DNA of 64,000 nt from Anadara kagoshimensis (Eukaryota; Mollusca; Bivalvia; Arcoida; Arcidae): assembly GCA_021292105.1 (NCBI GenBank), contig CM037870.1:11333353-11397352 (forward strand), given 5' to 3'. A model generated the notes under the pieces. That model did not search any database and was not told where the DNA came from. It saw only the letters and a program-made list of their open reading frames with translations. Numbering within the stretch: the first letter of the stretch is position 1; each line of letters opens with the position of its first letter. This document shows positions 15,254 to 62,121 of the stretch, one piece after another. Position numbers and translations under genes: made by a program.

Positions 15254-18200
15254 ACCATTGGAGTGATAATTACCATGATGAATCAGTGTAATGTTATTTC
15301 ACATCATACAATCCATTATGTCCTAATAAAGTTTCACTTTCCGCCAGGAATTAACAGCAGTGCAAAATCACCTTTTAGAGGACGGACAAAATGGGGTTAT
15401 ATTCATATGTGTAGATTTTGGTTCAAGCATATTTGGCAATATCCAATCGTACAAAGATATACCGACTACTTGTGGACTCTGCCTATTGGCAGAGACGAAC
15501 GATAAAAACAGTAAACTTCTATTTACATGGTTTATTAATGTCAAATTCACCTTCGACAGAGTGGGTTGTCCCAAGTCCAACTCTTTTCTCTCTATGTCTT
15601 AATTACATGCATATTTATACCATTAGATTGAATAGAACACAAAAATTTGTAACAATAAATCTGATTGGTTAGATCAGGTTATAATCTGTTGTTAACCTTA
15701 GTTTACCTTATTGGCAACATAAATAAATGTAGAAAATACTTATTATATAACCAAACACGACAGTTCTTATTATAATTAATCCTTCTTAAAATGGGGACAT
15801 CAAAGTCCACTTGAAATGTCTACTTAGTACTAAGAAAGAGTAAAAAAAAATAATCAGTATGTAAAATGATATAATTAATCCTAATACTAATATTTCTTAT
15901 TCCAGGTAGATTAAGATTAATTTACATCTGGAAATAAGTGTTAAGTAAAGCTAAATTCCTATCTAAATATTTTAATGTTTTTGGATAATTTGTAAATATC
16001 AAGAAATATTTATCATAATTTTATATTATTTAATATATATAATATTTACATTTATAATTTATTTCATATTTTCTTTTCCTTTAAAATCATTAAACTTGAT
16101 TTAATGTTGATGTTAAAAAGATACTAAATGAGCTCTGTGACACTTCCCTCTTGTCTATGTGAACTTGTTCCACAAGTTTTGTTTAAGAAAGGAAGGGCAG
16201 TGTTGAAAAAAGTAGAGATATAAAACATTTTCAACCAAAACATGTTTAAAGTAAAACTGTAAGCAAAGTGTTTACACTTGAAACAATGGATTGATGTCAT
16301 ATAAAGAATTTAAAAATATACTAAATAAGCTCTTAGCTCTGTATTTTCAAATAAAACAATTATTTTAACAATACATAAATATACAGTATATGCTAAAATC
16401 ACTTTTTTTTAAAAAATGATTGTGTCATCTATTAAATTTTGGGATAATATTCCCTATGAATCATAAATCATAAAATGAAACAAATAGTCATATTTATATT
16501 AAATGACATAATATCAAAATAAAAATGAGTTTCAAATTTTTGTAATTTTACATCAATATAGATTTCTGAACTGTGCTGTACTTCATATATATAATATTCA
16601 TTCTCAAATTTGAAGTGTGCTGTACTTCATATATTTTGTGCTATACTTCATATATATAATGTTCATTTTCATTTTAGAAATGTTGTATTTCATTTATTTA
16701 ATGTTCATTGTCATAGTTGAAGTGTTCTGTACTTCATATATATTGTGTTCATAATTATACTTTATGTTCCATTTTGTGAGGAATCTTTACAATGTTTTAT
16801 TCTTTCATATAGATTTCTTTTGTTTTACATTTTTTATATATCTGTAAAATTTAATATAGCATATGCAAACTTAATCAGTCAAGCAAACTGGGCATATTTA
16901 AAATAATGTCAAAACATGGATAACTACTAAATTGTCTATGAGAAATTATACAATCAAGTTGATTGTCTTTTAAGAACAGTGAAAATAAGTAAAATAAGTC
17001 AAATAAGGTGTTATGTAAACTTGACTCAGAATTGAAATATATATAGTTGTCACTTGTAGGAAAAGTTCAAATAATATAATGTTTTCAAATTATGGTCACC
17101 ATTACAATAAACGTCAAGCTTGTCCTCCTGAATCCAAATATAAAATTAATCCAAATAAAACACAGAATTATTGAATTATATTATCTCTAATCCGCACTTA
17201 ATTTCACAAACACTTGAAATCTAGTGGAAATTGCCATCCATTTTAGTCTGTTTCTGGTTGTTGTAGTCATCTGATGTGCTGCTCTGAAATCTAATGTTAT
17301 GTTCTTAGGGCACCAAAATATCAGGTTGTCATCTATTGTGTGCAATTTGATTGCACTGTGTTTTTGTTGCTGTTGATGTCCACTCTGTTCCACCATAACT
17401 TCTGCTGTTAAGTGTACAACTACTTAAATTGTGCATAGCATTCTGCAGCACATGTGACATAAATTTCAAAAATTTTAGTTAACCAAACGAAAATGAATTA
17501 TTGAAAGTAAAAAAATATGAAAATGATGAATAATAAATAATTGTTTCAAATAATATATAGCTCAAATATATTAGTTGGGGATTGGGGAGGTGTATCACTG
17601 CCCTTAAACTGAAATATTGTCCTATCTAACCTTACTAGTGATTACATCCAGTTGTTAATGCTGTTCACTGCATTTAAAGGTCCAAGCCTAGCAGGCACAT
17701 AACTCACAAGCATTCTGACATCTGGGACCCTAATCTAAACTAACCCTATTCTATAAAAAAATAATGGCAGTGATATCTGTTTTATTTATTTTTTTTTTTG
17801 ACCATTTAAAGTATATAAATTGGGGTTTATATATGTATTAATATTTTTAAAGGTTTTTTTATATGTGTAGATTTCTAAATGTGCCTAATGTATCTCAATA
17901 TTGAATAACTTGTTATTATAAATAAAAATTGTGATAATTATAAGAATTTCTGTTACACTCCTGAAATGTATATGCATTTACATGTTCAACTAAGTTTTAC
18001 TACAAATCCCCGACAGTTAAGGTAAGTGACTGTAATATGTGTGAAAGTAAGTTATCACTTGAAAATGAAAAGTACATTCAATAAAATGTACAGATTTATA
18101 AATATATTTTCAGGTTACAATAAAGCTAAACAATTTGATACACAACACACATGATGATTATAATATGTAAAATATAAAATTAATATTTATTTATTTATTT

Positions 18201-18414
18201 ATTTATATTTATTTATTATTTATTTATTTATTATTTTTATATTATTTTAGTCACTTATTTATATATTTACCAGGTAAGGTTGCATCTATGGTATGGGAAA
18301 CAGTTATAAACATCCTTGTGGAGAATGTATCAGTTTTTTGTGCGGTACTATAAGAATTTGAGTGTAACGCTTTCACATGTGCCCAAACTAAATCGGTTGT
18401 AGAAACAATGATGT
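15254..18414 (+). repeat. Array unit A (internally deleted)
   Basis: First unit of the direct ~3.45 kb tandem array, with phase set at ACCATTGGAGTGATAATTAC. It jumps from GTTATTT to CACATCATAC near 15300, losing about 330 bp that in other units hold the ATT run, the acceptor-like TTGCAG and the first GT15-like coding piece. Diagnostic bases (CACTTGAAACAATGG near 16277; TATTTTCAAATAAAAC near 16342) match units H and I rather than B-F, so it is an older edge unit. Confidence 0.9.
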
Positions 18415-21400
18415 ACCATTGGAGTGATAATTACCATGATGAATCAGTGTAATGTTAGTTACATTTATTATTATTATTATAATTATTATTTATACTCTTT
18501 TTTTTATTGCAGACAATAAAAGGGAAATGTCGACCAAATTTATCCTGCTTTACAATAATTATTTTCTATCTACATGATTTATAAATATTCATGGCGTTCA
18601 AAAAATTCCAGAAAATGAAATCAGTTATCACAGAATTGCCATTGGTATTCTAGGTGGATTGGGAAAATGAACTGATGCTCCGTCAATTATCGACTATGAT
18701 AAGGTCAACTGACTTTTTTAATACTACAGATATACAACTATTCAGTGACACAAAACCGGTTTCAAACATCAAGAAGGACTTAAACATCATACAATCCATT
18801 ATGTCCTAAAAAGTTTCACTTTCCGCCAGGAATTAACAGCAGTGCAAAAATCACCTTTAGAGGACGGACAAAATGGGGATATTCATATGTGTAGTTTTGT
18901 TCAAGCATATTTGGCAATATCAATCGTACAAAGAAATACCGACTACTTGTGGACTCTGCCTTTTGGCAGAGACGAAACGATAAAAACAGTAAACTTCTAT
19001 TTACATGTTTATTAATGTCAAATTCTCCTTCGACAGAGTGGGTTGTCCCAATCCAACTCTTTTTCTCTCTATGTCTTAATTACATGCATATTTATACCAT
19101 TTAGATTGAATAGAACACAAAATTTGTAACAATAAATCTGATTGGTTAGTCAGGTTATAATCTGTGTTAACCTTAGTTTACCTTATTGGCAACATAAATA
19201 AATGTAGAAAATACTTATTATATAACCAAACACGACAGTTCTTATTATAATTAATCTTCTTAAAATGGGGACATCAAAGTCCACTTGAAATGTCTACTTA
19301 GTACTAAGAAAGAGTAAAAAAACAAATAATCAGTATGTAAAATGATATAATTAATCCTAATACTAATATTTCTTATTCCAGGTAGATTAAGATTATTCAC
19401 ATCTGGAAATAAGTGTTAAGTAAAGCTAAATTCCTATCTAAATATTTTAATGTTTTGGATAATTTGTAAATATCAAGAAATATTATCAATTTTTATATTA
19501 ATATATATAATATTTACATTTATAATTTATTTCAATTTTCTTTTCCTTTAAAATCATTAAACTTGATTTAAATGTTGATGTTAAAAAGATACTAAATGAG
19601 CTCTGTGGACACTTCCCTCTTGTCTATGTGAACTTGTTCCACAAGTTTGTTTAAGAAAGGAAGGGCAGTGTTGAAAAAGTAGTAGAGATATAAAACATTT
19701 TCAACCAAAACATGTTTAAAGTAAAACTGTAAGCAAAGTGTTTACACATAACAAAATGGATTGATGTCATATAAAGAATTTAAAAATATACTAAATAAGC
19801 TCTTAGCTCTGTATTTTAAAAATAAAACAATTATTTTAACAATACATAAATATACAGTATATATGCTAAAATCACTTTTTTAAAAATGCTTGTGTCATAT
19901 ATTAAATTTTGGGATAATATTCCCTATGAATCAAAATCATAAAATGAAACAATAGTCATATTTATATTAAATGACATAATATCAAAATAAAAATGAGTTT
20001 CAATTTTTGTAATTTTACATCAATATAGATTTCTGAACTGTGCTGTACTTCATATATATAATATTCATTCTCAAATTTGAAGTGTGCTGTACTTCATATA
20101 TTTTGTGCTATACTTCATATATATAATGTTCATTTTCATTTTAGAAATGTTGTATTTATATATTTAATGTTCATTGTCATAGTTGAAGTGTTCTGTACTT
20201 CATATATATTGTGTTCATAATTATACTTTATGTTCCATTTTGTGAGGAATCTTTACAATGTTTTTATTCTTTCATATAGATTTCTTTTGTTTTACATTTT
20301 TATATATCTGTAAAATTTAATATAGCATATGCAAACTTAATCTGTCAAGCAAACTGGGCATATTTAAAATTAATGTCAAACAGGAATAACTACTAAATTG
20401 GTCTATGAGAAATTATACAATCAAGTTGATTGTCTTTTAAGAACAGTGAAAATAAGTAAAATAAGTCAAATAAGGCTGTTTATGTAAACTTGACTCAGAA
20501 TTGAAATATTATAGTTGTCACTTGTAGAAAAGTTAAATAATATAATGTTTTCAAATTATGTCACCATTACAATAAACGTTCAAGCTGTCCTCCTGAATCC
20601 AAATATAAAATTAATCCAAATAAAACACAGAATTATTGAATTATATTTATCTCTATAATCCGCACTTCAATTCACAAACACGTGAAATCTAGTGGAAATT
20701 GCCATCCATTTTAGTCTGTATTTCTGGTTGTTGTAGTCATCTGATGTGCTGCTCTGAAATCTAATGTTATGTTCTTATGGGCACCAAAATATCAGGTTGT
20801 CATCTATTGTGTGCAATTTTGATTGCACTGTGTTTTGTTGCTGTTGATGTCCACTCTGTTCCACCATAACTTCTGCTGTTAAGTGTACAACTACTTAAAT
20901 TGTGCATAGCATTCTGCAGCACATGTGACATAAATTTCAAAAATATTTTAGTTCAACCAAACGAAAATGAATTATTTGAAAGTAAAAAATATGAAAATGA
21001 TGAATAATAAATAATTGTTTCAAATAATATATAGCTCAAATATATTAGTTGGGGATTGGGGAGGGGTATATCACTGCCCTTAAACTGAAATATTGTCCCT
21101 ATCTAACCTTACTAGTGATTACATCCAGTTGTTAATGCTGTTCACCTGCAGTTTAAAGGTCCAAGCCTAGCAGGCACATAACTACAAGCATTCTGACATC
21201 TGGGACCCTAAATCTAAACTAACCATATTCTATAAAAAAAATAATGGCAGTGATATCTGTTTTATTTATTTTTTTGACCATTTAAAGTTATATAAATTGG
21301 GGTTTATATATGTATTAATATTTTTAAAGGTTTTATATGTGTAGATTTCTAAATGTGCTAATGTATCTCAATATTGAATAACTTGTTATTTATAAATAAA

Positions 21401-21852
21401 AATTGTGATAATTATAAGGATTTCTGTTACACTCCTGAAATGTATATGCATTTACATGTCAACTAAGTTTACTACAAATCCCCGACAGTTAAGGTAAGTG
21501 ACTGTAAATGTGTGTGAAAGTAAGTTATCACTTGAAAATGAAAAGTACATTCAATAAAATGTACAGATTTATAAATATATTTTCAGTGTTACAATAAAGC
21601 TAAACAATTGATACACCACACACATGATGTATAGTATTGTAAAATATTAAAATTGATATTTATTTATTATTTATTTATTATTATTACTATTTATTTTAGT
21701 CACTCTATTTATATATTTACCAGGTAAGGTTGCATCACTTGGTATGGGAAACAGTTATAAACATCCTTGTGGATAATGTATCAGTTTTTTGTGCGGTACT
21801 ATAAGAATTTGAGTGTACGCTTTCAAAAAATCGGTTGTAGAAACAATGATGT
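18415..21852 (+). repeat. Array unit B
   Basis: Full unit, 3438 bp. The GT15-like pieces start at the acceptor-like TTGCAG before 18513 and are broken by many single-base deletions (for example in ATATTCATGGCGTTC near 18586). It shares rare variants with unit E: CACGTGAAATC (about 20680 and 31115), TTTATATATTTAATG, GGATAATGTATC, and loss of the ACATTTGCCC stretch before the next unit. It has noticeably more 1-nt gaps than D-G. Confidence 0.9.
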
Positions 21853-24800
21853 ACCATTGGAGTGATAATTACCATGATGAATCAGTGTAATGTTATTTAC
21901 ATATTATTATTATTATTATAATTATTATTTATTACTTTTTTTTTATTGCAGACAATAAAAGGGAAATGTCGACCAAATTTATCCTGCTTTACAATAATTA
22001 TTTTCATATCTAATGATTTATAAATATTTCATGGCGTTCAAAAAATTCCAGAAAATGAAATCAGTTATCACAGAATTGCCATTGGTATTCTAGGTGGATT
22101 GGGAAAATGAACTGATGCTCCGTCAATTATCGACTATGATAAGGTCAACTGACTTTTTAATACTACAGATATACAACTATTCAGTGACACAAAACCGGTT
22201 TCAAACATCAAGAAGGACTTAACACATCATACAATCCATTATGTCCTAATAAAGTTTCACTTTCCGCCAGGAATTAACAGCAGTGCAAAATCGCCTTTTA
22301 GAGGACGGACAAAATGGGGTTATATCATATGTGTAGATTTTGGTTCAAGCATATTTGGCAATATCCAATCGTACAAAGAAATACCGACTACTTGTGGACT
22401 CTGCCTTTTGGCAGAGACGAACGATAAAAACAGTAAACTTCTTTACATGGTTTATTAATGTCAAATTCTCCTTCGACAGAGTGGGTTGTCCCAAGTCCAA
22501 CTCTTTCTCTCTATGTCTTAATTACATGCATATTTATACCATTAGATTGAATAGAACACAAAAATTTGTAACAATAAATCTGATTGGTTAGATCAGGTTA
22601 TAATCTGTTGTTAACCTTAGTTTACCTTATTGGCAACATAAATAAATGTAGAAAATACTATTATATAACCAAACACGACAGTTCTTATTATAATTAATCC
22701 TTCTTAAAATGGGGACATCAAAGTCCACTTGAAATGTCTACTTAGTACTAAGAAAGAGTAAAAAAACAAATAATCAGTATGTAAAATGATATAATAATCC
22801 TAATACTAATATTCTTATTCCAGGTAGATTAAGATTAATTTACATCTGGAAATAAGTGTTAAGTAAAGCTAAATTCCTATCTAAATATTTTAATGTTTTT
22901 GGATAATTTGTAAATATCAAGAAATATTTATCATAATTTTATATTATTTAATATATATAATATTTACATTTATAATTTATTTCATATTTTCTTTTCCTTT
23001 AAAATCATTAAACTTGATTTAATGTTGATGTTAAAAAGATACTAAATGAGCTCTGTGACACTTCCCTCTTGTCTATGTGAACTTGTTCCACAAGTTTTGT
23101 TTAAGAAAGGAAGGGCAGTGTTGAAAAAGGTAGAGATATAAACATTTTCAACCAAAACATGTTTAAAGTAAAACTGTAAGCAAAGTGTTTACACATAACA
23201 AAATGGATTGATGTCATATAAAGAATTTAAAAATATACTAAATAAGTCTTAGCTCTGTATTTTAAAATAAAACAATTATTTTAACAATACATAAATATAC
23301 AGTATATATGCTAAAATTACTTTTTTAAAAATGCTTGTGTCATATATTAAATTTTGGGATAATATTCCCTATGAATCATAAATCATAAAATGAAACAAAT
23401 AGTCATATTTATATTAAATGACATAATATCAAAATAAAAATGAGTTTCAATTTTTGTAATTTTACATCAATATAGATTTCTGAACTGTGCTGTACTTCAT
23501 ATATATATAATATTCATTCTCAAATTTGAAGTGTGCTGTACTTCATATATTGTGCTATACTTCATATATATAATGTTCATTTTCATTTTAGAAATGTTGT
23601 ATTTCATTTATTTAATGTTCATTGTCATAGTTGAAGTGTTCTGTACTTCATATATATTGTGTTCATAATTATACTTTATGTTCCATTTTGTGAGGAATCT
23701 TTACAATGTTTTTATTCTTTCATATAGATTTCTTTTGTTTTACATTTTTTATATATCTGTAAAATTTAATATAGCATATGCAAACTTAATCTGTCAAGCA
23801 AACTGGGCATATTTAAAATTAATGTCAAACATGGATAACTACTAAATTGGTCTATGAGAAATTATACAATCAAGTTGATTGTCTTTTAAGAACAGTGAAA
23901 ATCAGTAAAATAAGGCTGTTATGTAAACTTGACTCAGAATTGAAATATATATAGTTGTCACTTGTAGGAAAAGTTCAAATAATATAATGTTTTCAAATTA
24001 TGTCACCATTACAATAAACGTTCAAGCTGTCCTCTGAATCCAAATATAAATTAATCCAAATAAAACACAGAATTATTGAATTATATTTATCTCTATAATC
24101 CGCACTTTAATTTCACAAACACTGAAATCTAGTGGAAATTGCCATCCATTTTAGTCTGTATTTCTGGTTGTTGTAGTCATCTGATGTGCTGCTCTGAAAT
24201 CTAATGTTATGTTCTTTATGGGCACCAAAATATCAGGTTGTCATCTATTGTGTGCAATTTTGATTGCACTGTGTTTTGTTGCTGTTGATGTCCACTCTGT
24301 TCCACCATAACTTCTGCTGTTAAGTGTACAACTACTTAAATTGTGCATAGCATTCTGCAGCACATGTGACATTAATTTCAAAAATATTTTAGTTAACCAA
24401 ACGAAAATGAATTATTTGAAAGTAAAAAATATGAAAATGATGAATAATAAATAATTGTTTCAAATAATATATAGCTCAAATATATTAGTTGGGGATTGGG
24501 GAGGTGTATATCACTGCCCCTTAAACTGAAATATTGTCCCTATCTAACCTTACTAGTGATTACATCCAGTTGTTAATGCTGTTCACCTGCAGTTTAAAGG
24601 TCCAAGCCTAGCAGGCACATAACTCACAAGCATTCTGACATCTGGGACCCTAATCTAAACTAACCCTATTCTATAAAAAAATAATGGCAGTGATATCTGT
24701 TTGTTTTTTTTTTTTTTTTTTGACCATTTAAAGTTATATAAATTGGGGTTTATATATGTATTAATTTAAAGGTTTTTTATATGTGTAGATTTCTAAATGT

Positions 24801-25105
24801 GCCTAATGTATCTCAATATGAATAATTGTTATTTATAAATAAAAATTGTGATAATTATAACGATTTCTGTTACACTCCTGAAATGTATATGCATTTACAT
24901 GTTCAACTAAGTTTTACTACAAATCCCCGACAGTTAAGGTAAGTGACTGTAATATGTGTGAAAGTAAGTTATCACTTGAAAATGAAAAGTACATTCAATA
25001 AAATGTACAGATTTATAAATATATTTTCAGTGTTACAATAAAGCTAAACAATTTGATACACAACACACATGATGTATAGTATTGTAAAATATTAAAATTG
25101 ATACT

Positions 25106-25141
<36 letters not shown>

Positions 25142-25337
25142 TATTTATTATTTTTACTATTTATTTTTAGTCACTCTATTTATATATTTACCAGGTAAGG
25201 TTGCATCACTTGGTATGGGAAACAGTTATAAACATCCTTGTGGAGAATGTATCAGTTTTTTGTGCGGTACTATAAGAATTTGAGTGTAACGCTTTTCACA
25301 TTTGCCCAAACTAAATCGGTTGTAGAAACAATGATGT
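21853..25337 (+). repeat. Array unit C
   Basis: Full unit, 3485 bp. It shares variants with unit F: AAAATTACTTTTTT (about 23325 and 33777), GACATTAATTTC (about 24367 and 34833) and GAAAATCAGTAAA. The GT15-like coding piece (about 21952-22400) has frame-breaking single-base losses. Its downstream C-terminal piece at 25190-25283 is intact and listed separately. Confidence 0.9.
25190..25283 (+). pseudogene. GT15-like C-terminal fragment
   Basis: An open stretch encodes PGKVASLGMGNSYKHPCGEC and a short tail to a stop at 25281-25283. It aligns with the end of the fuller GT15-like frame in unit J, where SYKHLC corresponds to the conserved GYxHPPF-like C-terminal motif of Kre2/Mnt1-type enzymes. 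It is preceded by a pyrimidine-rich tract and TTACCAG, so it could be read as an exon start. In this unit the catalytic core that should lie just upstream is absent, replaced by ~2.7 kb of unrelated AT-rich sequence. Equivalent, variably broken copies precede each unit start. Confidence 0.55.
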
Positions 25338-28300
25338 ACCATTGGAGTGATAATTACCATGATGAATCAGTGTAATGTTATTTACATTTATTATTATTAT
25401 TATTATAATATTATTTATTACTCTTTTTTTTATTGCAGACAATAAAAGGGAAATGTCGACCAAATTTATCCTGCTTTACAATAATTATTTTCATATCTAC
25501 ATGATTTATAAATATTTCATGGCGTTTCAAAAAATTCCAGAAAATGAAATCAGTTATCACAGAATTGCCATTGGTATTCTAGGTGGATTGGGAAAATGAA
25601 CTGATGCTCCGTCAATTATCGACTATGATAAGGTCAACTGACTTTTTAATACTACAGATATAAACTATTCAGTGACACAATACCGGTTTCAAACATCAAG
25701 AAGGACTTAACGCATCATACAATCCATTATGTCCTAATAAAGTTTCACTTTCCGCCAGGAATTAACAGCAGTGCAAAATCACCTTTTAGAGGACGGACGG
25801 ACAAAATGGGGTTATATTCATATGTGTAGATTGGTTCAAGCATATTTGGCAATATCCAATCGTACAAAGAAATACCGACTACTTGTGGACTCTGCCTTTT
25901 GGCAGAGACGAACGATAAAAACAGTAAACTTCTATTTACATGGTTTATTAATGTCAAATTCTCCTTCGACAGAGTGGGTTGTCCCAAGTCCAACTCTTTT
26001 CTCTCTATGTCTTAATTACATGCATATTTATACCATTTAGATTGAATAGAACACAAAAATTTGTAACAATAAATCTGATTGGTTAGATCAGGTTATAATC
26101 TGTTGTTAACCTTAGTTTACCTTATTGGCAACATAAATAAATGTAGAAAATACTTATTATATAACCAAACACGACAGTTCTTATTATAATTAATCCTTCT
26201 TAAAATGGGGACATCAAAGTCCACTTGAAATGTCTACTTAGTACTAAGAAAGAGTAAAAACAAATAATCAGTATGTAAAATGATATAATTAATCCTAATA
26301 CTAATATTTCTTATTCCAGGTAGATTAAGATTAATTCACATCTGGAAATAAGTGTTAAGTAAAGCTAAATTCCTATCTAAATATTTAATTTTTGGATAAT
26401 TTGTAAATATCAAGAAATATTTATCATAATTTTATATATTTAATATATATAATATTACATTTATAATTTATTTCATATTTTCTTTTCCTTTAAAATCATT
26501 AAACTTGATTAATGTTGATGTTAAAAAGATACTAAATGAGCTCTGTGACACTTCCCTCTTGTCTATGTGAACTTGTTCCACAAGTTTTGTTTAAGAAAGG
26601 AAGGGCAGTGTTGAAAAAGGTAGAGATATAAAACATTTTCAACCAAAACATGTTTAAAGTAAAACTGTAAGCAAAGTGTTTACACATAACAAAATGGATT
26701 GATGTCATATAAAGAATTTAAAAAATATACTAAATAAGCTCTTAGCTCTGTATTTTAAAATAAAACAATTATTTTAACAATACATAAATATACAGTATAT
26801 ATGCTAAAATCACTTTTTTAAAAATGCTTGTGTCATATATTAAATTTGGGATAATATTCCCTATGAATCATAAATCATAAAATGAAACAAATAGTCATAT
26901 TATATAAATGACATAATATCAAAATAAAAATGAGTTTCAATTTTTGTAATTTTACATCAATATAGATTCTGAACTGTGCTGTACTTCATATATATATAAT
27001 ATTCATTCTCAAATTTGAAGTGTGCTGTACTTCATATATTTTGTGCTATACTTCATATATATAATGTTCATTTTCTTTTAGAAATGTTGTATTTCATTTA
27101 TTTAATGTTCATTGTCATAGTTGAAGTGTTCTGTACTTCATATATATTGTGTCATAATTATACTTTATGTTCCATTTTGTGAGGAATCTTTACATTTTTT
27201 TATTCTTTCATATAGATTTTTTTGTTTTACATTTTTTATATATCTGTAAAATTTAATATAGCATATGCAAACTTAATCTGTCAAGCAAACTGGGCATATT
27301 TAAAATTAATGTCAAACATGGATAACTACTAAATTGGTCTATGAGAAATTATACAATCAAGTTGATTGTCTTTTAAGAACAGTGAAAATAAGTAAAATAA
27401 GTCAAATAAGGCTGTTTATGTAAACTTGACTCAGAATTGAAATATATATAGTTGTCACTTGTAGGAAAAGTTCAAATAATATAATGTTTTCAAATTATGT
27501 CACCATTACAATAAACGTTCAAGCTGTCCTCCTGAATCCAAATATAAAATTAATCCAAATAAAACACAGAATTATTGAATTATATTTATCTCTATAATCC
27601 GCACTTTAATTTCACAAACACTTGAAATCTAGTGGAAATTGCCATCCATTTTAGTCTGTATTTCTGGTTGTTGTAGTCATCTGATGTGCTGCTCTGAAAT
27701 CTAATGTTATGTTCTTTATGGGCACCAAAATATCAGGTTGTCATCTATTGTGTGCAATTTTGATTGCACTGTGTTTTTGTTGCTGTTGATGTCCACTCTG
27801 TTCCACCATAACTTCTGCTGTTAAGTGTACAACTACTTAAATTGTGCATAGCATTCTGCAGCACATGTGACATAAATTTCAAAAATATTTTAGTTAACCA
27901 AACGAAAATGAATTATTTGAAAGTAAAAAATATGAAAATGATGAATAATAAATAATTGTTTCAAATAATATATAGCTCAAATATATTAGTTGGGGATTGG
28001 GTGGGGTATATCACTGCCCCTTAAACTGAAATATTGTCCCTATCTAACCTTACTAGTGATTACATCCAGTTGTTAATGCTGTTCACCTGCAGTTTAAAGG
28101 TCAAGCCTAGCAGGCACATAACTCACAAGCATTCTGACATCTGGGACCCTAATCTAAACTAACCCTATTCTATAAAAAAATAATGGCAGTGATATCTGTT
28201 TATTTATTTTTTTTTTGACCATTTAAAGTTATATAAATTGGGGTTTATATATGTATTAATATTTTAAAGGTTTTATATGTGTAGATTTCTAAATGTGCTA

Positions 28301-28608: not shown

Positions 28609-28651
<43 letters not shown>

Positions 28652-32103: not shown

Positions 32104-32135
<32 letters not shown>

Positions 32136-41721: not shown

Positions 41722-41726
<5 letters not shown>

Positions 41727-41773
<47 letters not shown>

Positions 41774-41871: not shown

Positions 41872-41942
<71 letters not shown>

Positions 41943-49130: not shown

Positions 49131-49715
49131 GTTATAAACTGTTTGTGACTGTATATTTTGAGTTGATGGATGGATCTACCTGTGACATTATTTATCGGTA
49201 TTAGTCCATTGTTATTGTCTAGTATATACAGGTATTATATACTGAAGAACAGTAATGGTAATTAGGTCACGCACTGTACAGGTATACGGAAACTTTATAA
49301 CACTTCCTATTACTGAGGTACTCAAAGGGTCTACAAATTGAATATCCTTGCATTTATATTTTCAGGTGCGACGTTTATTTATCAGGTTACTATCAACGTT
49401 TAATTGTGTATTTGTATTTTTGAATTTTGGTGCTTCTATTTTGTTTATTTTTCTATTTTATTTTGCTTATTTTTTGCTTTTGATTTTTTTAGTGCATTGC
49501 AGTGTTGTATTTTGTTTATATATCTATTTTTTTTAAAAAAAAACATTTTTTTGCTTATTATTTTTGTGCTTTGGTTTTTTTTTTGTGTGCTGAATTGCTG
49601 TTTGAAATATTATCTGTTTTGTTTGCTTTATGTGCTTTATATGTGGCATGTGTTTCCAAAGTTTGAATTTTTATGAACTTATAGCAATAGGTTAAGCATA
49701 CACAGGTGATATATA

Positions 49716-49753
<38 letters not shown>

Positions 49754-50472
49754 TTTGTCTCTTGTTTTCAGTATTTTTGGTGAGTAAGGGTGTATGAAAA
49801 AAATACTAAATATATCCACCACTGTAATTACACATATTATTTCTTTGCACTTTCTTTGCAATTTTCTATTTAATTAGCATAGCTTAAGTTTAGTTAACTT
49901 AGATTAAGTTTAGTTAAGTTATTTAAGTATCCCATTCCATATATTACAAATTTGAACATATTAATGGGTTACAGGAATTTTCAGATAACAACTATGCAGG
50001 TAGGTTTTTAATTAAGTTTACTTAAGTTAATTAGTGCATGCTATAGGTAGTGTGTTGGTTAAAAAAAATAGTCCAAATAGTCTATTTAGTTAGTTCGCAT
50101 CGAGTTATTTTTACAAGGATTCCGTTATATCTATACCAACGTTATATGTGTTGTAACATTGTATCAACGTTATATTCAAGCTACATATACCGTTACAACG
50201 TACCGACGTTATAAATAAAGTGATCTGTGACATTTATCATCGACAAATTGAACATATACAACGTTATTTGTCATCAGTTTTGTGTCTCTTTCATCAACAA
50301 GTCATCGATAATTAATACGTCAATATAGTCGATTTTAATCAACGGTGGAAAATATCAGCATTTTATAAATTTGTCATCGATAGTTGATATCAGGATACGG
50401 TATTTAGATTAAGGTAGTTTAGTTTAGTTTAGTTCTTAATTAAGTTACAAGTTAATATCACAATTAAACAAA
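49131..50472 (+). other. Retrotransposon leader, no gene
   Basis: 1.34 kb between the shared LTR part and Gag. It contains a U-rich stretch with hydrophobic chance frames (49348-49676), a (TA)n run (about 49711-49750), and repeats of TAAGTTTAGTTAA near 49880-49920 and 50405-50440. I found no convincing tRNA primer-binding site, nor the LTR end sequence that should precede it. TTTTCAGGTGCGACG (49359-49373) and GCAGGTAGG (near 49998) resemble splice sites. Confidence 0.6.
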
Positions 50473-51708: not shown

Positions 51709-54179
51709 GTGAATTGGACGATAGACCCATACAATATTCGGTTCAAGGAAATAATAAATTACCAAACGGAATGATTGGACATTGCAATGAAGCTGACATA
51801 AGAATAAACAATATTAAAACAACAGCATTATTGGATACAGGGTCTACGGTGTCGACGATGAGCAGGTCGTTTTATAACAAACATTTTGGAGATGTTGAAT
51901 TATTTCCAGTAATGGACATTTTAAACATAGAATGCGCTGGAGGTCAGACACTGCCATATGATGGTTATATTGATGTAAACATACAGGCAATTGGAATACC
52001 ATCATCAGAAACACAACGTTGTCTTATGCTCGTCGTTCCCGACAGTAAATACAATAATAATGTACCAATTATATTAGGAACCAACATATTATGGCGTTAT
52101 GTAAACCAATGTAAGAAAGAATATGGAGATCGATTTTTACAACAAGCTAACTTGTTTACGCCTTGGTATTTATCCTTGCGATGTATTGTTTTGCGAGAAC
52201 GCGAATTGGCTAGGAACAATTATCAACTTGGAATAGTAAAAAGTGCTGAGAAAACAAATATTATTATACCAGCCAACAAATGTGTCACTGTAAATGGATT
52301 CATAACTCCAACTCAACAATATAATACGACGTGTGCACTGCTTCAAACAACGGAAGGATCAATTTTAGGCACGGATTTAGACATAACACCATTAATAGTT
52401 AGATTTGATAATAACAGCAGTATAGTTCCAATCAATATATCCAATGTCACCACGAGAACTGTCGTTATTCCGCCTAAAGCATTATTGTGCGAGATTCAAC
52501 CGGTAACCGTCGAGAATAATCAAATCCAGAATAATAATTCTACAGTCGATACATCATTTACAAAAATTATGGAACAAATGAAAATTTTGTCAGATTTATC
52601 ATCACAACAACTGGAAAAAACAAAACAACTACTTCAACAATTTCCAGAGATATTTTCAACAGGTGATACGGACATAGGCCATTCAACATTCGTTAAACAC
52701 CGCATTGAATTAACCAACGATATTCCTTTCAAGCAAAGGCACAGAACTATACCACCTGCAATGTTTGATGAAATAAGGGAGCATCTTCAAGGAATGTTAG
52801 CATGTGGAGTTATAAGACAATCTCATTCTCCCTGGGCTTCAAACGTAGTATTGGCACGAAAACACGATGGAAAACTACGTATGTGCGTTGATTTCCGCCA
52901 ACTGAATCAGCGAACTATTAGAGACTCTTACGCCTTACCACGTATTGAAGATATTTTACATACATTGTCAGGATCTCGATATTTCAGCGTCCTCGATATG
53001 AAAAGTGGATACTACCAGGTAGATATTGAGGAGGCACATAAGGAGCGTACTGCCTTTACAGTTGGTCCACTAGGATTTTACGAGTATAATCGATTGCCAA
53101 TGGGTTTAAATAATAGTCCAGCGACGTATCAACGTTTGATGGAAGATATTCTCGGTGACCTAAATTATAAGATCTGCTGTATATATTTGGATGATATCAT
53201 CATCTTCGCGTCTGCTTTCGAACAACATATGGAGCGACTTCAACAGGTGTTTCAACGTTTGAAAGATAGTGGATTGAAGTTAACACCGAAGAAATGTGCA
53301 TTTTTTCAACCAAAAGTGAAATATGTAGGTCATGTTGTATCTGCAGATGGCATCGAGGCAAATCCCGAGAAAATAGAGAAGGTTATTAATTGGCAAACTC
53401 CAAAATCACCAGAAGAAGTAAGGAAATTTCTAGGTTTTGCTGGATATTACCGCAAATTTATTAAAGACTTCGCAAAAATTGCAAGACCACTTAATGACAT
53501 CATGCCAGCACCAAATTCTAAAAAGTCTAGGACCAAATCATCGAAATCAATCAATATACAGAAATGGAAATGGGAAAAGGAACAGGAGGATGCTTTTCAA
53601 GAACTCAAAACTCGTCTATCAAAACCACCGATATTAGGATATGCGATCTATAACCTACCATTTGAACTTCACACGGATGCAAGTAATCGTGGTCTTGGAG
53701 CCGTGTTATATCAAAAGCAGGACGGAGTAAATCGAGTCATAGCGTTTGCGAGTCGAGGTGTGAGCAAGGCAGAGCAAAGTTATCCTGCGCACAAGCTGGA
53801 GTTTTTGGCTCTAAAATGGGCGATCACAGACAAATTTAAGGATTATCTCTATGGACGAAGCTTCACTGTTTATACTGACAACAATCCATTAACGTACGTC
53901 TTAACTTCAGCTAAATTAGATTCGACTGGACACAGATGGTTGGCTTCTCTTGCATCTTTTGACTACCAAATTATTTACAGACCGGGTAGAAGAAATCAAG
54001 ATGCTGATACTCTCTCAAGGTTAGACAACGACACAGAACAACAGATGTCTCAGACGATTTCTACAGAATCTATTAGAGCCATTTGTCACGTCATTGATAC
54101 ACAGCCATATATTAAAACTATATGTAGCTCCGTTGAAGTTGTTGACAACGCTTCTTTGGATGAACTTGAGAAATGTTGA
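51642..54179 (+). CDS. pol: Pol part 1: protease, reverse transcriptase, RNase H
   Basis: Open in the -1 frame relative to Gag from 51642, with no ATG at its start; expression by frameshifting is expected. Numbering residues from 51714: aspartic protease motif LLDTGSTVS at 40-48. RT spans roughly 325-510, with VDFRQLN, LDMKSGYYQV, and the catalytic YLDD at 491-494. RNase H starts with HTDAS near 655 and continues through KLEFLALKWAI and YTDNNPL to DADTLSR. Motifs and order are those of Ty3/Gypsy, and all catalytic aspartates are present. The frame ends at TGA 54177-54179, just where the linker to integrase should continue; the continuation is in the +1 frame. Confidence 0.92.
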   Translation, partial: STFGLFTQRFKRGKTYWQGSPVGELDDRPIQYSVQGNNKLPNGMIGHCNEADIRINNIKTTALLDTGSTVSTMSRSFYNKHFGDVELFPVMDILNIECAGGQTLPYDGYIDVNIQAIGIPSSETQRCLMLVVPDSKYNNNVPIILGTNILWRYVNQCKKEYGDRFLQQANLFTPWYLSLRCIVLRERELARNNYQLGIVKSAEKTNIIIPANKCVTVNGFITPTQQYNTTCALLQTTEGSILGTDLDITPLIVRFDNNSSIVPINISNVTTRTVVIPPKALLCEIQPVTVENNQIQNNNSTVDTSFTKIMEQMKILSDLSSQQLEKTKQLLQQFPEIFSTGDTDIGHSTFVKHRIELTNDIPFKQRHRTIPPAMFDEIREHLQGMLACGVIRQSHSPWASNVVLARKHDGKLRMCVDFRQLNQRTIRDSYALPRIEDILHTLSGSRYFSVLDMKSGYYQVDIEEAHKERTAFTVGPLGFYEYNRLPMGLNNSPATYQRLMEDILGDLNYKICCIYLDDIIIFASAFEQHMERLQQVFQRLKDSGLKLTPKKCAFFQPKVKYVGHVVSADGIEANPEKIEKVINWQTPKSPEEVRKFLGFAGYYRKFIKDFAKIARPLNDIMPAPNSKKSRTKSSKSINIQKWKWEKEQEDAFQELKTRLSKPPILGYAIYNLPFELHTDASNRGLGAVLYQKQDGVNRVIAFASRGVSKAEQSYPAHKLEFLALKWAITDKFKDYLYGRSFTVYTDNNPLTYVLTSAKLDSTGHRWLASLASFDYQIIYRPGRRNQDADTLSRLDNDTEQQMSQTISTESIRAICHVIDTQPYIKTICSSVEVVDNASLDELEKC
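51669..51728 (+). promoter_or_regulatory. Programmed -1 frameshift signal (slippery site plus pseudoknot)
   Basis: UUUAAAC at 51669-51675 sits in the Gag register as U-UUA-AAC, the classic X-XXY-YYZ heptamer. An 8-nt spacer follows. Stem 1 is 51684-51692 with 51702-51710 (ACCUAUUGG with CCAGUAGGU; 9 bp, one G-U). The loop bases GGGUC (51696-51700) can pair with GACCC (51724-51728) as stem 2, giving an H-type pseudoknot with a 3-nt loop 1 and 13-nt loop 3. The Gag stop (51706-51708) lies inside stem 1. The Pol frame is open from 51642, so a -1 slip here enters it directly. Confidence 0.82.
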
Positions 54180-56271
54180 TTGTTTGAACTATAAAGATTG
54201 GAGACGAATACAGAGACAAGATCCGATGTTGAAAACCTGGATAAAAGCTGTAGAAGACAGATTTATACCAAAGAATTCAACTGAGTCAGCTCAATACCAT
54301 TTACCATCTTTGAAGAAATATTTTAATCAACTAAAGTTAACTAGAGGAGTCTTATACAGGAATATTACGACGGATGGAGTTAAAACAACACAACTAGTTC
54401 TGCCAGTAACATATATACCACAGGCATTAAGATCATTACATAACGATTTAGGACATCCTGGAAGAGATCGGACAATATCACTTCTCCGTGAAAGATTTTA
54501 CTGGCCAGGCATGTTACAAGATACAGAAAAATGGATACAAAAATGTGACAGATGTTTGAAGAACAAAACACAGACAAATTCAAGGGCACCATTAATAAAT
54601 ATAAAGACTTCACAACCATTAGAACTTATATGTATGGACTTTTTATCTTTAGAAACTTCAAAGGGGGGATTTCAGAACATCTTAGTTATAACAGACCACT
54701 TTACAAGATATGCCCAGGCAATTCCAACACGTAATCAAACAGCTAAAACAACAGCAGAGGCATTCTTTAACAACTTCGTCATTCACTACGGTTTACCATC
54801 TCGAATTCATTCAGACCAAGGGGCTAAGTTTGAAAGCAAACTTATAAAAGAACTTTGTGCAATCACAGGAATCTCAAAATCAAGAACAACACCTTACCAT
54901 CCGGCTGGAAATGGCATGTGTGAGCGTTTTAATAGAACTCTATTATCCATGTTAGGAACGTTAAGGCCAGAACAAAAGTTAGATTGGAAAAGCCACGTAG
55001 GTCCTATGGTACATGCATACAACTGCACAAGGCACGAATCCACTGGTTACGCTCCATTCTATCTCATGTTCGGCAGACATCCGCGACTACCAGTTGATTT
55101 GGCATTTGGATTAAACAACAACAAATTACAATCTTTACATAAATACACGGAGGAATTAAAGGAAAGATTAAGGAATGCATATCATCTTGCTTCAACATCT
55201 GCGAATAAATCACAACAGAAACAGAAACAAAGCTATGATAGGAAAGTAAGAGGTTCGAACATAGAAGAAGGAGATACCGTTCTTGTAAAACAACTAGCAT
55301 TCGATGGTAAACACAAACTTTCTGACAAATGGGAGGATGATATTTATATTGTAATAAAGCAACCAAACAAGGAAATCCCGGTATATATTGTACAAAAGGA
55401 GGATGGGACAGGAATAAAAAGGACATTACATCGGAACAATTTATTTCCAATCAATTATATAAGAGAAGATCAGGATAGTAAACAAATAAACGATAAGGAA
55501 AAGGAGAAACATCAACAACAAAAACAGCAAAATCAGCAGAAACAACGTAATAAATCACCATTAAAGTCGGAAAAAGCATCAGAAACAGAAAGTTCAGAAC
55601 AGGAATCAACAGATGAGGAGGAATATGATGTTCAAACAACATGTGTTATACGATCAGATAACATTAGCGCTAATGTTGAGGAGGAAGCAACTGGAACAGT
55701 TTCCGAACAGCTAGCTGGTGACGATCAGATACCTGTTCTGGGATCAGAAGATTTCATCAATGGCGACGGCCATTCTCCTCATTTAGCAGGCGACGATGGA
55801 ATTTCTTCAAGTAGTTTCAGTTTAGGTGACGAGACGATTTGTAAAGAGATAGATTTTACCTCCGATGAACATCAAGGAAAGAGTAGGAATGAAAGTGTAC
55901 CTAGTCTTACTGAAAACAACATTTCAGTGGCTACAGGAACACCGAATAGAACAAATGAATCACCAAGGAATCAGACAACACCAAAACATAGAGTTTTACC
56001 AGCTGTTGACAATTCAGTTACAAATAACACCGGACGACGACTTTTGCCTACACCGCCACATACTTCGAGACCAAAACGAGTTAGACAAAAACCTGAATGG
56101 ATGCGTTCTGGAGAATTTGTTATGGCACAGATAGCAAGTGAAAATAGGGAACCGTTATGGAAACAGAAGGCTAACTATCTACGATCGTTTATAGAGGATG
56201 GAATAGTAAGACCAAACCAAACAGAAACAGTTATTCAGGCTATTGCTAAAGTGATGACAAATACAGAGTAA
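54094..56271 (+). CDS. Pol part 2: integrase
   Basis: Open frame overlapping the end of pol part 1 by 86 bp; meaningful homology begins near 54172, so the true entry is the frame change, not a start codon. Counting from 54094: the zinc-binding HHCC domain has His116, His121, Cys151 and Cys154. The catalytic triad is Asp182, Asp241 and Glu277 (D,D-x35-E). A GPY/F-like C-terminal module lies near 385-450 (KLSDKWEDDIYIV). An acidic, Gln/Lys- and Ser-rich tail of ~270 residues follows, ending in a basic RPKRVRQKPEWM stretch. It inserts the cDNA into the host genome. The domain is complete, but separation from RT/RNase H by one base may inactivate this copy unless recoding occurs. Confidence 0.9.
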   Translation: MIHSHILKLYVAPLKLLTTLLWMNLRNVDCLNYKDWRRIQRQDPMLKTWIKAVEDRFIPKNSTESAQYHLPSLKKYFNQLKLTRGVLYRNITTDGVKTTQLVLPVTYIPQALRSLHNDLGHPGRDRTISLLRERFYWPGMLQDTEKWIQKCDRCLKNKTQTNSRAPLINIKTSQPLELICMDFLSLETSKGGFQNILVITDHFTRYAQAIPTRNQTAKTTAEAFFNNFVIHYGLPSRIHSDQGAKFESKLIKELCAITGISKSRTTPYHPAGNGMCERFNRTLLSMLGTLRPEQKLDWKSHVGPMVHAYNCTRHESTGYAPFYLMFGRHPRLPVDLAFGLNNNKLQSLHKYTEELKERLRNAYHLASTSANKSQQKQKQSYDRKVRGSNIEEGDTVLVKQLAFDGKHKLSDKWEDDIYIVIKQPNKEIPVYIVQKEDGTGIKRTLHRNNLFPINYIREDQDSKQINDKEKEKHQQQKQQNQQKQRNKSPLKSEKASETESSEQESTDEEEYDVQTTCVIRSDNISANVEEEATGTVSEQLAGDDQIPVLGSEDFINGDGHSPHLAGDDGISSSSFSLGDETICKEIDFTSDEHQGKSRNESVPSLTENNISVATGTPNRTNESPRNQTTPKHRVLPAVDNSVTNNTGRRLLPTPPHTSRPKRVRQKPEWMRSGEFVMAQIASENREPLWKQKANYLRSFIEDGIVRPNQTETVIQAIAKVMTNTE

Positions 56272-56293
56272 ATGATGAGGACATCATTTTGCA

Positions 56294-56304
56294 AGCAGGG
56301 GAAG
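56294..56304 (+). promoter_or_regulatory. Polypurine tract
   Basis: AGCAGGGGAAG lies two bases before the 3' LTR start (TGTAGCC at 56307). It is the purine-rich primer site for plus-strand DNA synthesis, in the position expected for LTR retroelements. Confidence 0.75.
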
Positions 56305-56306
56305 TA

Positions 56307-57141
56307 TGTAGCCGGGTTAGGATTTTAGTTTTATTTAATTAGTTGTAATTAGTCTTATTATTAAGTACTAACCATAATTTATTAATTAACACTTAGTTAA
56401 GACATTAGTATAAGTTATTTATTTAATAATTAAGTCAATTTCTATAAGGGGTATACTATTTTCTAAGTTCTTTCGGGTTAATAATTATTTCCCTTTTAAA
56501 CTGACTAGATGGGTTTTCATTGGTCAATGTTTTGGTGGGTAATTTGGGAAAGAAAACAAAGACACTGAACATGGCGGTGGCGTCATGAATTTTATACATC
56601 TATATTTTAAGTTTAGGTAAGTTTACCCGTTGCCCAGCTTTTCCAAATCCCTTTCTATTTATTGGTATTTATATATATTTATTGTACTTTTATATATATG
56701 TAGTTTATAAAGCTCTTTTACACTATTCTTTGACTTTTTCACTAACACATCACCGTGAGCAAATGCGTGATTGTAAGACGTCATCTATTTTTATAACTAT
56801 CAACAACACCTGTTGTATACGGTAAATCATAACATATTTTAACAATCATGCCTAGATTATTTTGTATCGATGTATATATTTAAGAGCCGTTGTAAGGTTC
56901 ATATGGGCTCTATACAAATGATTGCATTTCACATTACTTTTACACGTGTACAACAATGTATTAAATGGCTATAATATAAGCACCATAGTAAACCTCATAT
57001 ATTGTTTTGTTTAGGTTACATGGTGAAATGGTTTAAGGAATGTACTGGTAATACATGAGTGTGTCTTCACGCAAAGTTACACTTTGGTATGTAATATATA
57101 TGTGTGTCATTGTCCGTGTATATTAAGCTATTAATCTTACC

Positions 57142-57172
<31 letters not shown>

Positions 57173-57515
57173 TTATGTATCTGTGTTAATATAAAGTCAT
57201 AAGTCATATAAACATGGAAACTAGTATGTGTGCAATAATGGTTGTCATTGTTTGACGATATATGAAACTATTTATTTATTAGTCTGAACCAAAATATCAT
57301 CAATATATATTTTGTTGGGTGTTATATACGGATGGATATAAATCCCATGTGTATGTAAATGTAATGTGTTTTAGTGTGTTCTGATATATGTTTTGTTTTA
57401 TGTTATAGGGTGTGAAAAGAAAGAGAAATGTAAATACCCTAATAGATATTGCTGTAATAATAAACTTTGTATATGTATGTCCGAGGTTTGCTTGTAATTT
57501 TCGAACCCTGTTACA
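56307..57515 (+). repeat. 3' LTR (1209 bp)
   Basis: Runs from TGTAGCCGGG just after the polypurine tract to CCCTGTTACA, followed by the TTAA target duplication. The first ~868 bp match the 5' LTR. After the (TG)n run (57142-57168) the remaining ~341 bp have no counterpart near the 5' LTR. An AATAAA lies near 57459. Because this end carries the canonical CA and target duplication, it is probably the authentic LTR end. Confidence 0.88.
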
Positions 57516-59358
57516 TTAACAATACATAAATATACAGTATATATGCTAAAATCACTTTTTTTAAAAATGATTGTGTCATCTATTAAATTTTGGGATAATA
57601 TTCCCTATGAATCATAAATCATAAAATGAAACAAATAGTCATATTTATATTAAATGACATAATATCAAAATAAAAATGAGTTTCAAATTTTTGTAATTTT
57701 ACATCAATATAGATTTCTGAACTGTGCTGTACTTCATATATATATAATATTCATTCTCAAATTTGAAGTGTGCTGTACTTCATATATTTTGTGCTATACT
57801 TCATATATATAATGTTCATTTTCATTTTAGAAATGTTGTATTTCATATATTTAATGTTCATTGTCATAGTTGAAGTGTTCTGTACTTCATATATATTGTG
57901 TTCATAATTATACTTTATGTTCCATTTTGTGAGGAATCTTTACAATGTTTTTATTCTTTCATATAGATTTCTTTTGTTTTACATTTTTTATATATCTGTA
58001 AAATTTAATACAGCATATGCAAACTTAATCTGTCAAGCAAACTGGGCATATTTAAAATTAATGTCAAACATGAATAACTACTAAATTGGTCTATGAGAAA
58101 TTATACAATCAAGTTGATTGTCTTTTAAGAACAGTGAAAATAAGTAAAATAAGGCTGTTTATGTAAACTTGACTCAGAATTGAAATATATATAGTTGACA
58201 CTTGTAGAAAAAAGTTCAAATAATATAATGTTTTCAAATTATGTCACCATTACAATAAACGTTCAAGCTGTCCTCCTGAATCCAAATATAAAATTAATCC
58301 AAATAAAACACAGAATTATTTAATTATATTTATCTCTATAATCAACACTTCAATTTCACAAACACTTGAAATCTAGTGGAAATTGCCATCCATTTTAGTC
58401 TGTATTTCTGGTTGTTGTAGTCATCTGATGTTCTGCTCTGAAATCTAATGTTATGTTCTTTATGGGCACCAAAATATCAGGTTGTCATCTATTGTGTGCA
58501 ATTTTGATTGCACTGTGTGTTCTGTTGCTGTTGATGTCCACTCTGTTCCACCATAACTTCTGCTGTTAAGTGTACAACTACTTAAATTGTGCATAGCATT
58601 CTGCAGCACATGTGACATAAATTTCAAAAATATTTTAGTCAACCAAACGAAAATGAATTATTTGAAAGTAAAAAAATATGAAAATGATGAATAATAAATA
58701 ATTGTTTCAAATAATATATAGCTCAAATATATTAGTTGGGGATTGGGGAGGGGTATATCACTGCCCCTTAAACTGAAATATTGTCCCTATCTAACCTTAC
58801 TAGTGATTACATCCAGTTGTTAATGCTGTTCACCTGCAGTTTAAAGGTCCAAGCCTAGCAGGAACATAACTCACAAGCATTCTGACATCTGGGACCCTAA
58901 ACTAAACTAACCATATTCTATAAAAAAATAATGGCAGTGATATATGTTTTATTTATTTATTTTTTTGACCATTTAAAGGGAGATAAATTGGGGTTTATAT
59001 ATGTATTAATATTTTTTAAAGGTTTTCATATGTGTAGATTTCTAAATGTGCATAATGTATCTCAATATTGAATAATTTGTTATTTAAAAAATAAAAATTG
59101 TGATAATTATAAGGATTTCTGTTACACTCCTGAAATGTATATGCATTTACATGTACAACTAAGTTTTACTACAAATCCCCGACAGTTAAGGTAAGTGACT
59201 GTAATATGTGTGAAAGTAAGTTATCACTTGAAAATGAAAAGTACATTCAATAAAATGTACAGATTTATAAATATATTTTCAGTGTTACAATAAAGCTAAA
59301 CAATTTGATACACCACACACATGATGTATAGTATTGTACAATATTAAAATTGATATTT

Positions 59359-59389
<31 letters not shown>

Positions 59390-59553
59390 GTCACTCTATT
59401 TATTTACCAGGTAAGGTTGCACCACTTGGTATGGGAAACAGTTATAAACATCCTTGTGGATAATGTATCAGTTTTTTGTGCGGTACTATAAGAATTTGAG
59501 TGTAACGCTTTTCACATTTGCCCAAACTAAATCGGTTGTAGAAACCATGATGT
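57516..59553 (+). repeat. Array unit H, part 2
   Basis: Resumes at TTAACAATACATAAATATAC, exactly where part 1 left off, and runs to the next unit start. The variants (TTGACACTTGTAG, GTGTGTTCTGTTGC, AAAGGGAGATAAATTGG) are those of the H/I subtype. The C-terminal GT15-like fragment is near 59405-59505. Confidence 0.92.
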
Positions 59554-62121
59554 ACCATTGGAGTGATAATTACCATGATGAATCAGTGTAATGTTATTTA
59601 CATTTATTAATATTATTATTATAATTATTATTTATTACTCTTTTTATGTTTCTATTGCAGACAATCAAAAGGGAAATGTCGACCAAATTTATCCTGCTTT
59701 ACAATAATTATTTTCATATCTACAAGATTTATAAATATTTCATGGCGTTGCAAAAAATTCCAGAAAATGAAATCAGTTATCACAGAATTGCCATTGGTAT
59801 TCTAGGTGGATTGGGAAAATGAACTGATGCTCCGTCAATTATCGACTATGATAAGGTCAACTGACTTTTTTAATACTACAGATATACTACTATTCAGTGA
59901 CACAAAACCGGTTTCAAACATCAAGAAGGACTTAACACATCATACAATCCATTAAGTCCTAATAAAGTTTCACTTTCCGCCAGGAATTAACAGCAGTGCA
60001 AAATCACCTTTTAGAGGACGGACAAAATGGGGTTATATTCATATGTGTAGATTTTGGTTCAAGCATATTTGGCAATATCCAATCGTACAAAGATATACCG
60101 ACTACTTGTGGACTCTGCCTTTTGGCAGAGACGAACGATAAAAACAGTAAACTTCTCTTTACATGGTTTATTAATGTCAAATTCTCCTTCGACAGAGTGG
60201 GTTGTCCCAAGTCCAACTCTCTTCTCTCTATGTCTTAATTACATGCATATTTATACCATTTAGATTGAATAGAACACAAAAATTTGTAACAATAAATCTG
60301 ATTGGTTAGATCAGGTTATAATCTGTTGTTAACCTTAGTTTACCTTATTGGCAACATAAATAAATGTAGAAAATCCTTATTATATAACCAAACACGACAG
60401 TTCTTATTATAATTCAGCCTTCTTAAAATGGGGACATCAAAGTCCACTTGAAATGTCTACTTAGTACTAAGAAAGAGTAAAAAAACAAATAATCAGTATG
60501 TAAAATGATATAATTAATCCTTATACTAATATTTCTTATTCCAGGTAAATTAAGATTAATTTACATCTGGAAATAAGTGTTAAGTAAAGCTAAATTCCTA
60601 TTTAATATTTTAATGTTTTTGGTTAATTTGTAAATATCAAGAAATATTTATCATAATTTTATATTATTTAATATATATAATATTTACATTTATAATTTAT
60701 TTCATATTTTCTTTTCCTTTAAAATCACTAAACTTGATTTAATGTTGATGTTAAAAAGATACTAAATAAGCTCTGTGACACTTCCCTCTTGTCTATGTGA
60801 ACTTGTTCCACAAGTTTTGTTTAAGAAAGGAAGGGCAGTGTTGAAAAAGGTAGAGATATAAAACATTTTCAACCAAAACATGTTTAAAGTAAAACTGTAA
60901 GCAAAGTGTTTACACATGAAACAATGGATTGATGTCATATAAAGAATTTAAAAATATACTAAATAAGCTCGTAGCTCTGTATTTTCAAATAAAACAATTA
61001 TTTTAACAATACATAAATATACAGTATATATGCTAAAATCACTTTTTTTTAAAAAATGCTTGTGTCATCTATTAAATTTTGGGATAATATTTGCTATGAA
61101 TCATAAATCATAAAATGAAACAAATAGTCATATTTATATTAAATGACATAATATCAAAATAAAAATGAGTTTCAAATTTTTCTATTTTTACATCAATATA
61201 GATTTCTGAAGTGTGCTGTACTTCATATATATATAATATTCATTCTCAAATTTGAAGTGTGCTGTACTTCATATATTTTGTGATATACTTCATATATATA
61301 ATGTTCATTTTCATTTTAGAAATGTTGTATTTCATGTATTTAATGTTCATTGTCATAGTTGAAGTGTTCTGTACTTCATATATATTGTGTTCATAATTAT
61401 ACTTTATGTTCTATTTTGTGAGGAATCTTTACAATGTTTTTATTCTTTCATATAGATTTCTTTTGTTTTACATTTTTTATATATCTGTAAAATTTAATAC
61501 AGCATATGCAAACTTAATCTGTCAAGCAAACTGGGCATATTTAAAATTAATGTCAAACATGGATAACTACTAAATTGGTCTATGAGAAATTATACAATCA
61601 AGTTGATTGTCTTTTAAGAACAGTGAAAATAAGTAAAATAAGTAAAATAAGGCTGTTTATGTAAACTTGGCTCAGAATTGAAATATATACAGTTGTCACT
61701 TGTAGGAAAAGTTAAAAAAATATAATGTTTTTAAATTATGTCACCATTACATTAAACGTTCAAGCTGTCCTCCTGAATCCAAATATAAAATTAATCCAAA
61801 TAAAACACAGAATTATTGAATTATATGTATCTCTATAATCCACACTTCAATTTCACAAACACTTGAAATCTAGTGGAAATTGCCATCCATTTTAGTCTGT
61901 ATTTCTGGTTGTTGTAGTCATCTGATGTGCTGCTCTGAAATCTAATGTTATGTTCTTTATGGGCACCAAAATATCAGGTTGTCATCTATTGTGTGCAATT
62001 TTGATTGCACTGTGTGTTCTGTTGCTGTTGATGTCCACTCTGTTCCACCATAACTTCTGCTGTTAAGTGTACAACTACTTAAATTGTGCATAGCATTCTG
62101 CAGCACATGTGACATAAATTT
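59554..62121 (+). repeat. Array unit I (3' truncated)
   Basis: Follows the H-type consensus until GTGACATAAATTTC at 62121, then joins a J/K-type 3' flank (GTACTATACGAATTC). About 1.1 kb of the normal unit is missing at this junction. Confidence 0.9.
59806..60138 (+). pseudogene. GT15-like fragment, unit I
   Basis: Same segment as in units F-H, starting with GTG after CTAG, but carrying an additional in-frame stop: CATTATGTC of other units is CATTAAGTC here (TAA at 59953-59955). The HMCRFW motif and YPIVQR stretch follow downstream of the stop, and homology then ends as in the other array units. Clearly non-functional. Confidence 0.6.

Follow-up and report, generated by a model that had tools for sequence, protein, structure and literature searches.

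Tandem arrays of gene-bearing units several kilobases long have been described in the human genome. RS447 (USP17) occupies one or two chromosome sites and is made of tandem units of several kilobases, with a gene frame in every unit; D4Z4 (DUX4) consists of 3.3-kb tandem units whose monomers carry a reading frame; and DXZ4 is described in the same source as having short frames only, without known kin (PMC3018141). The locus analyzed here resembles the first two in its tandem, gene-bearing units on the kilobase scale (about 3.48 kb, as against 3.3 kb in D4Z4) and, as RS447 is described to do, in occupying one or two chromosome sites (PMC3018141). The head-to-tail arrangement of multi-kilobase units that is a feature of macrosatellites is present, and the open frame of macrosatellite units such as RS447 and D4Z4 is absent: RS447 units, as that source presents them, keep an open enzyme frame and D4Z4 monomers carry that of DUX4, whereas the gene of the present array is split, has no core and is frameshifted, and the units carry broken pieces only. 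Since the structural features tested were found but the genes look dead, the array is most suitably classed with RS447 and D4Z4, as a dead macrosatellite of their kind.

The array lies in a stretch of 64,000 nucleotides from Anadara kagoshimensis, called the window below. It is a readable case of macrosatellite birth from a gene, with single-exon relatives free of stops, tandem compact copies, related composite rows and an expanded array in one genome. The scenario that we consider very probable is as follows. A single-exon GT15-like glycosyltransferase gene would have stood in short tandem rows with a period of about 1.08 kb, and one gene copy would have suffered a one-base frameshift; in a copy, AT-rich dispersed-repeat DNA of about 2.8 kb would have taken the place of some 377 bp of catalytic core, probably through illegitimate recombination at a short ATAT present on both sides; the resulting 3.48-kb composite unit would have been multiplied into a macrosatellite by unequal exchange or conversion, and would since have evolved about neutrally, to be disrupted later by an insert bearing FkbM and by a Gypsy LTR element. 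What the sequence shows is the anatomy, the frameshift that copies have in common, the absence of coding constraint when units are compared, the stop-free relatives, the gene-free insert copies and the related rows at 0.5 Mb; the order of these events, the recombination mechanism and the absence of function are what we infer.

A BLAST comparison of one unit with the window revealed same-direction, head-to-tail copies of 3.44-3.50 kb (about 3.48 kb) from about 15,290 to 62,122, the 3.5-kb unit matching at 96-98% identity, far above chance; the array is real. An initial annotation had described at least nine same-direction units of about 3.45 kb, and ten long units or parts were indeed seen: five that are complete and in one piece, a sixth that is complete though a retrotransposon splits it, and four that are truncated. 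Their pairwise divergence is 0.4-5.9%, and 0.96-3% in 35 of the 45 pairs. The make-up given in that annotation was also recovered, a full long unit consisting of a GT15-like N-terminal part (to HMCRFW), AT-rich DNA of about 2.8 kb and a short C-terminal SYKHPCG piece; nine matches to the insert's 5' end were counted within the window. The catalytic core expected of a GT15 member is seen in none of the long units. Past 62,122, two compact units of 1.08 kb each (62,322-63,402 and 63,403-64,381) close the same array and keep core sequence, so that not every repeat is coreless: the annotation was right on this point for the long units and wrong for the two compact copies. The 50 kb beyond the array end yielded no further units, only AT-rich matches of about 90 bp. 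The features are the following.

15,291-18,512, forward strand: long unit 1, 5'-truncated, beginning inside the N-terminal gene part
18,513-21,951, forward strand: long unit 2
21,952-25,438, forward strand: long unit 3
25,439-28,927, forward strand: long unit 4
28,928-32,403, forward strand: long unit 5, with a small deletion over the shared frameshift site
32,404-35,904, forward strand: long unit 6, the reference, with N part 32,404-32,838, insert about 32,847-35,650, C piece about 35,653-35,710 and spacer to 35,904
35,905-38,340, forward strand: long unit 7, cut by the 7.2-kb interruption
38,341-45,560, no strand assigned: interruption of 7.2 kb
45,561-46,923, forward strand: long unit 8, 3' part only
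46,924-59,660, forward strand: long unit 9, complete, split by an LTR retrotransposon
48,270-57,515, forward strand: Gypsy-type LTR retrotransposon, splitting long unit 9
59,661-62,122, forward strand: long unit 10, 3'-truncated and joined directly to a compact unit's 3' part
62,307-63,195, forward strand: compact copy C1, a whole single-exon GT15-like gene with core
63,388-64,000 (window edge), forward strand: compact copy C2, with an in-frame stop; the last 381 bases or so of the array lie beyond the window

The 7.2-kb interruption holds an FkbM methyltransferase pseudogene with a single in-frame stop (39,131-40,156), direct repeats of 0.5 kb (38,342-38,842 and 43,339-43,818) and a 145-bp tandem repeat; about 314 bp of unit sequence occurs on both of its sides. 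The aligned LTR stretches of the Gypsy element are 99.4% identical over 857 bp, and the element is flanked by a TTAA target duplication; positions 50,440-56,271 encode a Gypsy-type pol together with a PNMA-like gag domain (PF14893). The window gave neither Rfam nor tRNA matches.

The family assignment, for which the initial annotation had relied on GT15 resemblance, was examined with PF01793. Three long-unit frames gave no Pfam match, nor did one frame inside the insert; the 235-codon frame of C1 gave E 4e-5 and 23.6 bits, under the cut-off of 25, and also matched Kre2/Ktr4 structures. The kinship of the long units with GT15 is instead visible from their open stretches, which are 69-73% identical in amino acids to a GT15 protein (P0001), and from their N part, which is 82-91% identical in nucleotides to GT15 loci over most of its length. 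Genome-wide, a search revealed relatives free of stops: among the 26 PF01793 matches listed, which do not include the window's own copies, all 26 exceeded the cut-off and 23 were free of stops, as against matches in 0 of 14 control genomes. One relative free of stops is the gene at 1.31 Mb of C14. When 24 of the 26 loci were read against the compact copy, 14 were 69-82% and 10 were 30-43% identical in amino acids over the best stretches. A seven-sequence profile of the relatives matched Ktr4 at 4.9e-19, and Kre2 structures as well. The family is like Kre2-Mnt1-Ktr in that the genome relatives, and below the cut-off the compact copy, match PF01793; it differs in that the long units keep no core and that the longest relatives that were read are about 286-363 amino acids long. 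Related proteins include one of Tegillarca granosa (40% identical) and others of Ostrea, Haliotis and Dreissena. GT15 had been called notable in a mollusc; by sequence comparison it is an expanded gene family in this genome rather than a stray fungal gene. Literature searches returned nothing that links Glyco_transf_15 or the GT15 glycosyltransferase family to molluscs and, by title, nothing on gene-derived bivalve satellites; for mannosyltransferase or Kre2 in bivalves they returned PMC6994554, whose subject, as far as its matched text goes, is a different one. Within C2, positions 63,568-63,951 match DUF7164 (PF23741) at E 3e-4, below the cut-off, hinting that this domain may be related to GT15.

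Five stop-free relatives (L005, L007, L035, L037 and L039) start with MFLLQ and consist of one frame of 286-297 codons. By inspection, they continue with a likely membrane segment, and the start of the gene resembles a type II membrane anchor; all five contain GIL(V/A)DW and finish with SY(K/R)HPC or close to it. In these relatives TTGCAG makes up codons 4-5 of a single-exon frame (ATG-TTT-CTN-TTG-CAG). The splice acceptor that had been seen in TTGCAG is therefore read through as coding sequence, and the reading of the array as one of exons was rejected. What survives of the claim that a GT15-like gene was turned into a satellite-like array is the origin from a gene and the array itself; the exons and the coreless state of every copy do not.

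The gene copies look dead, on sequence comparison, because of a shared frameshift, the loss of start codons and the free change of ex-coding DNA. The one-base frameshift relative to the relatives is present in 20 of 25 aligned units and parts, the site being absent in four and deleted in one; the B units among these 25 may be assembly copies. It is found too in both compact copies (near 62,487 in C1, where a few codons are also missing in the CRFW region) and in one compact copy at 0.5 Mb of C14, whose neighbour is without it. The start codon is gone in six of the eight long units that hold its site. Variable columns among long units fall 4/5/7 on the three codon positions, with no third-position excess, and the ex-coding stretch tested has 13.9 indel events per kb per pair and the insert 12.7, so that ex-coding DNA changes about as freely as the insert; the rate is 10.8 for the first 144 bp and 19.3 for the 3' spacer. 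Codon-aligned differences of C1 are 5/5/6 with unit 6 (dN/dS 0.76) and 4/4/7 with unit 9 (dN/dS 0.72), while two stop-free gene pairs gave dN/dS of 0.38 (L005-L008) and 0.26 (L001-L003); cruder codon-position counts were 12/8/9 for C1 and unit 6, and 8/4/5 for C1 and C2. Two points speak against the copies being dead: the frame of C1 is open over 235 codons, and the 56-bp C piece has no indel among the six full units. Moreover, against live-looking genes C1 has dN/dS of 0.50-0.69, and unit 6 of 0.37-0.73, values to be expected if the gene had been alive, and under selection, for part of that time; they fit such a history and do not prove it.

The gene sequence of the long units is interrupted near CAAAGATAT and picks up again at ACCAGGT; some 377 bp of core are missing, and about 2.8 kb stand in their place. 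On C12, C3 and C15 there are pieces of the insert that have no GT15 sequence beside them (3.1-4.7 kb read per place), which gives the insert the look of dispersed-repeat DNA that replaced this part of the core. The C12 piece is 74-90% identical and rearranged, with its first 0.7 kb in a palindrome; those on C3 and C15 are 74-84% identical, and another place on C15 about 90%. The latter copy reads ATATACCGACT as unit 9 does, and the gene and the left joint have ATAT in common, suggesting that illegitimate recombination at this short shared sequence probably joined the two. Calling the insert a mobile element goes too far, since neither transposon-type termini nor a target duplication was found for its 2.8 kb. 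Helitron-like ends were considered, a hairpin being present at the left end; the C12 and C15 copies begin at the insert's left edge too, but these two are alike for about 120 bp further left, so that Helitron-like ends are at most a possibility. On C12, a near-perfect palindrome (99.5%; L047:364-1957) surrounds part of the insert. At 0.50-0.51 Mb of C14, long-unit sequence (89-92% identical) is followed by compact copies, and because of this long-plus-compact row the composite unit seems to predate the expansion in the window. The window copies cluster together (94/94, just below the line starred by the program).

Replacement of the core has a competitor, unlikely but with evidence of its own, in which the unit was born by tandem duplication of a block that began in the upstream flank, took in a truncated C-terminal copy and reached the middle of the gene copy that follows. 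As such an origin would lead one to expect, the 3' end of the insert and the C piece directly precede whole compact copies at 0.5 Mb of C14; however, a nearly complete long unit (1-3492, 92%) stands there as well, so that the place is no pre-duplication state. The gene-free insert pieces elsewhere do not decide between the two origins. As for use of the units, as alternative exons or as genes for short proteins, frames open for 100-235 codons and an acceptor-like TTGCAG would suit it, yet TTGCAG is coding in the relatives, and the frameshift, the start losses, the unit-specific indels and the codon-position counts all oppose it, so that we give it scarcely any credence. In Drosophila, Su(Ste) restrains Stellate, a system in which damaged gene copies likewise stand in tandem, with live relatives elsewhere. 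By analogy, a dead array with inverted arms could give rise to small RNAs that keep the live GT15-like genes in check; exact 28-base runs are common to array units and 9 of 11 GT15 loci tested, but exact stretches in common with GT15 loci are limited here, and such a role is very improbable.

That the assembler had repeated a single locus, an explanation raised together with the initial annotation, deserves weighing on account of the surroundings of the array. Positions 1-10,394 form a near-perfect palindrome (99.84%), its arms covering about 5 kb each of the window, with a tandem repeat of about 197 bp inside it. This palindrome may be an assembly product; past the window edge it goes on into units in inverted orientation and another, third copy of the flank. 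The flank copies are 99.94-99.96% identical; between arms A and B, about 16 kb contain not a single substitution, and indels become more numerous towards the joint; and C14:344,076-351,500 (7,425 bp read) matches a stretch 11 Mb away at 100.000% identity, both starting at the same base beside N runs and both having array spacings that begin 3526, 3504. Given these near-identities and the shared start, the neighbouring palindromes and one of the two arrays (the twin lies at 0.36 Mb) are treated as possible assembly copies or alleles. For the window array itself, such an artefact is highly unlikely: its units differ by 0.4-5.9%, each with its own indels, the Gypsy and FkbM interruptions are carried by single units, and long-unit sequence at 0.5 Mb is 89-92% identical.

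The 5' end of the insert has at least 40 matches in the genome, a lower bound as 40 of 71 candidates were scored: 24 at 11.28-11.40 Mb, 14 at 0.357-0.402 Mb and one at 0.508 Mb of C14, and one on C15. Of the 40 scored matches, 39 fall within 0.36-0.51 or 11.28-11.40 Mb of C14, so that the sequence is confined to one or two places. We also considered, and rejected, a simple mobile element with the gene as its cargo: three GT15 loci on C17 are 99.0-99.6% identical over about 10 kb, and no border was found. These three (L006, L007 and L008, at 12.8-14.2 Mb) are 99.5-99.8% identical over 3.45 kb, occur in both orientations and, with about 10 kb of such near-identity and no border, are large recent duplicates or assembly copies.
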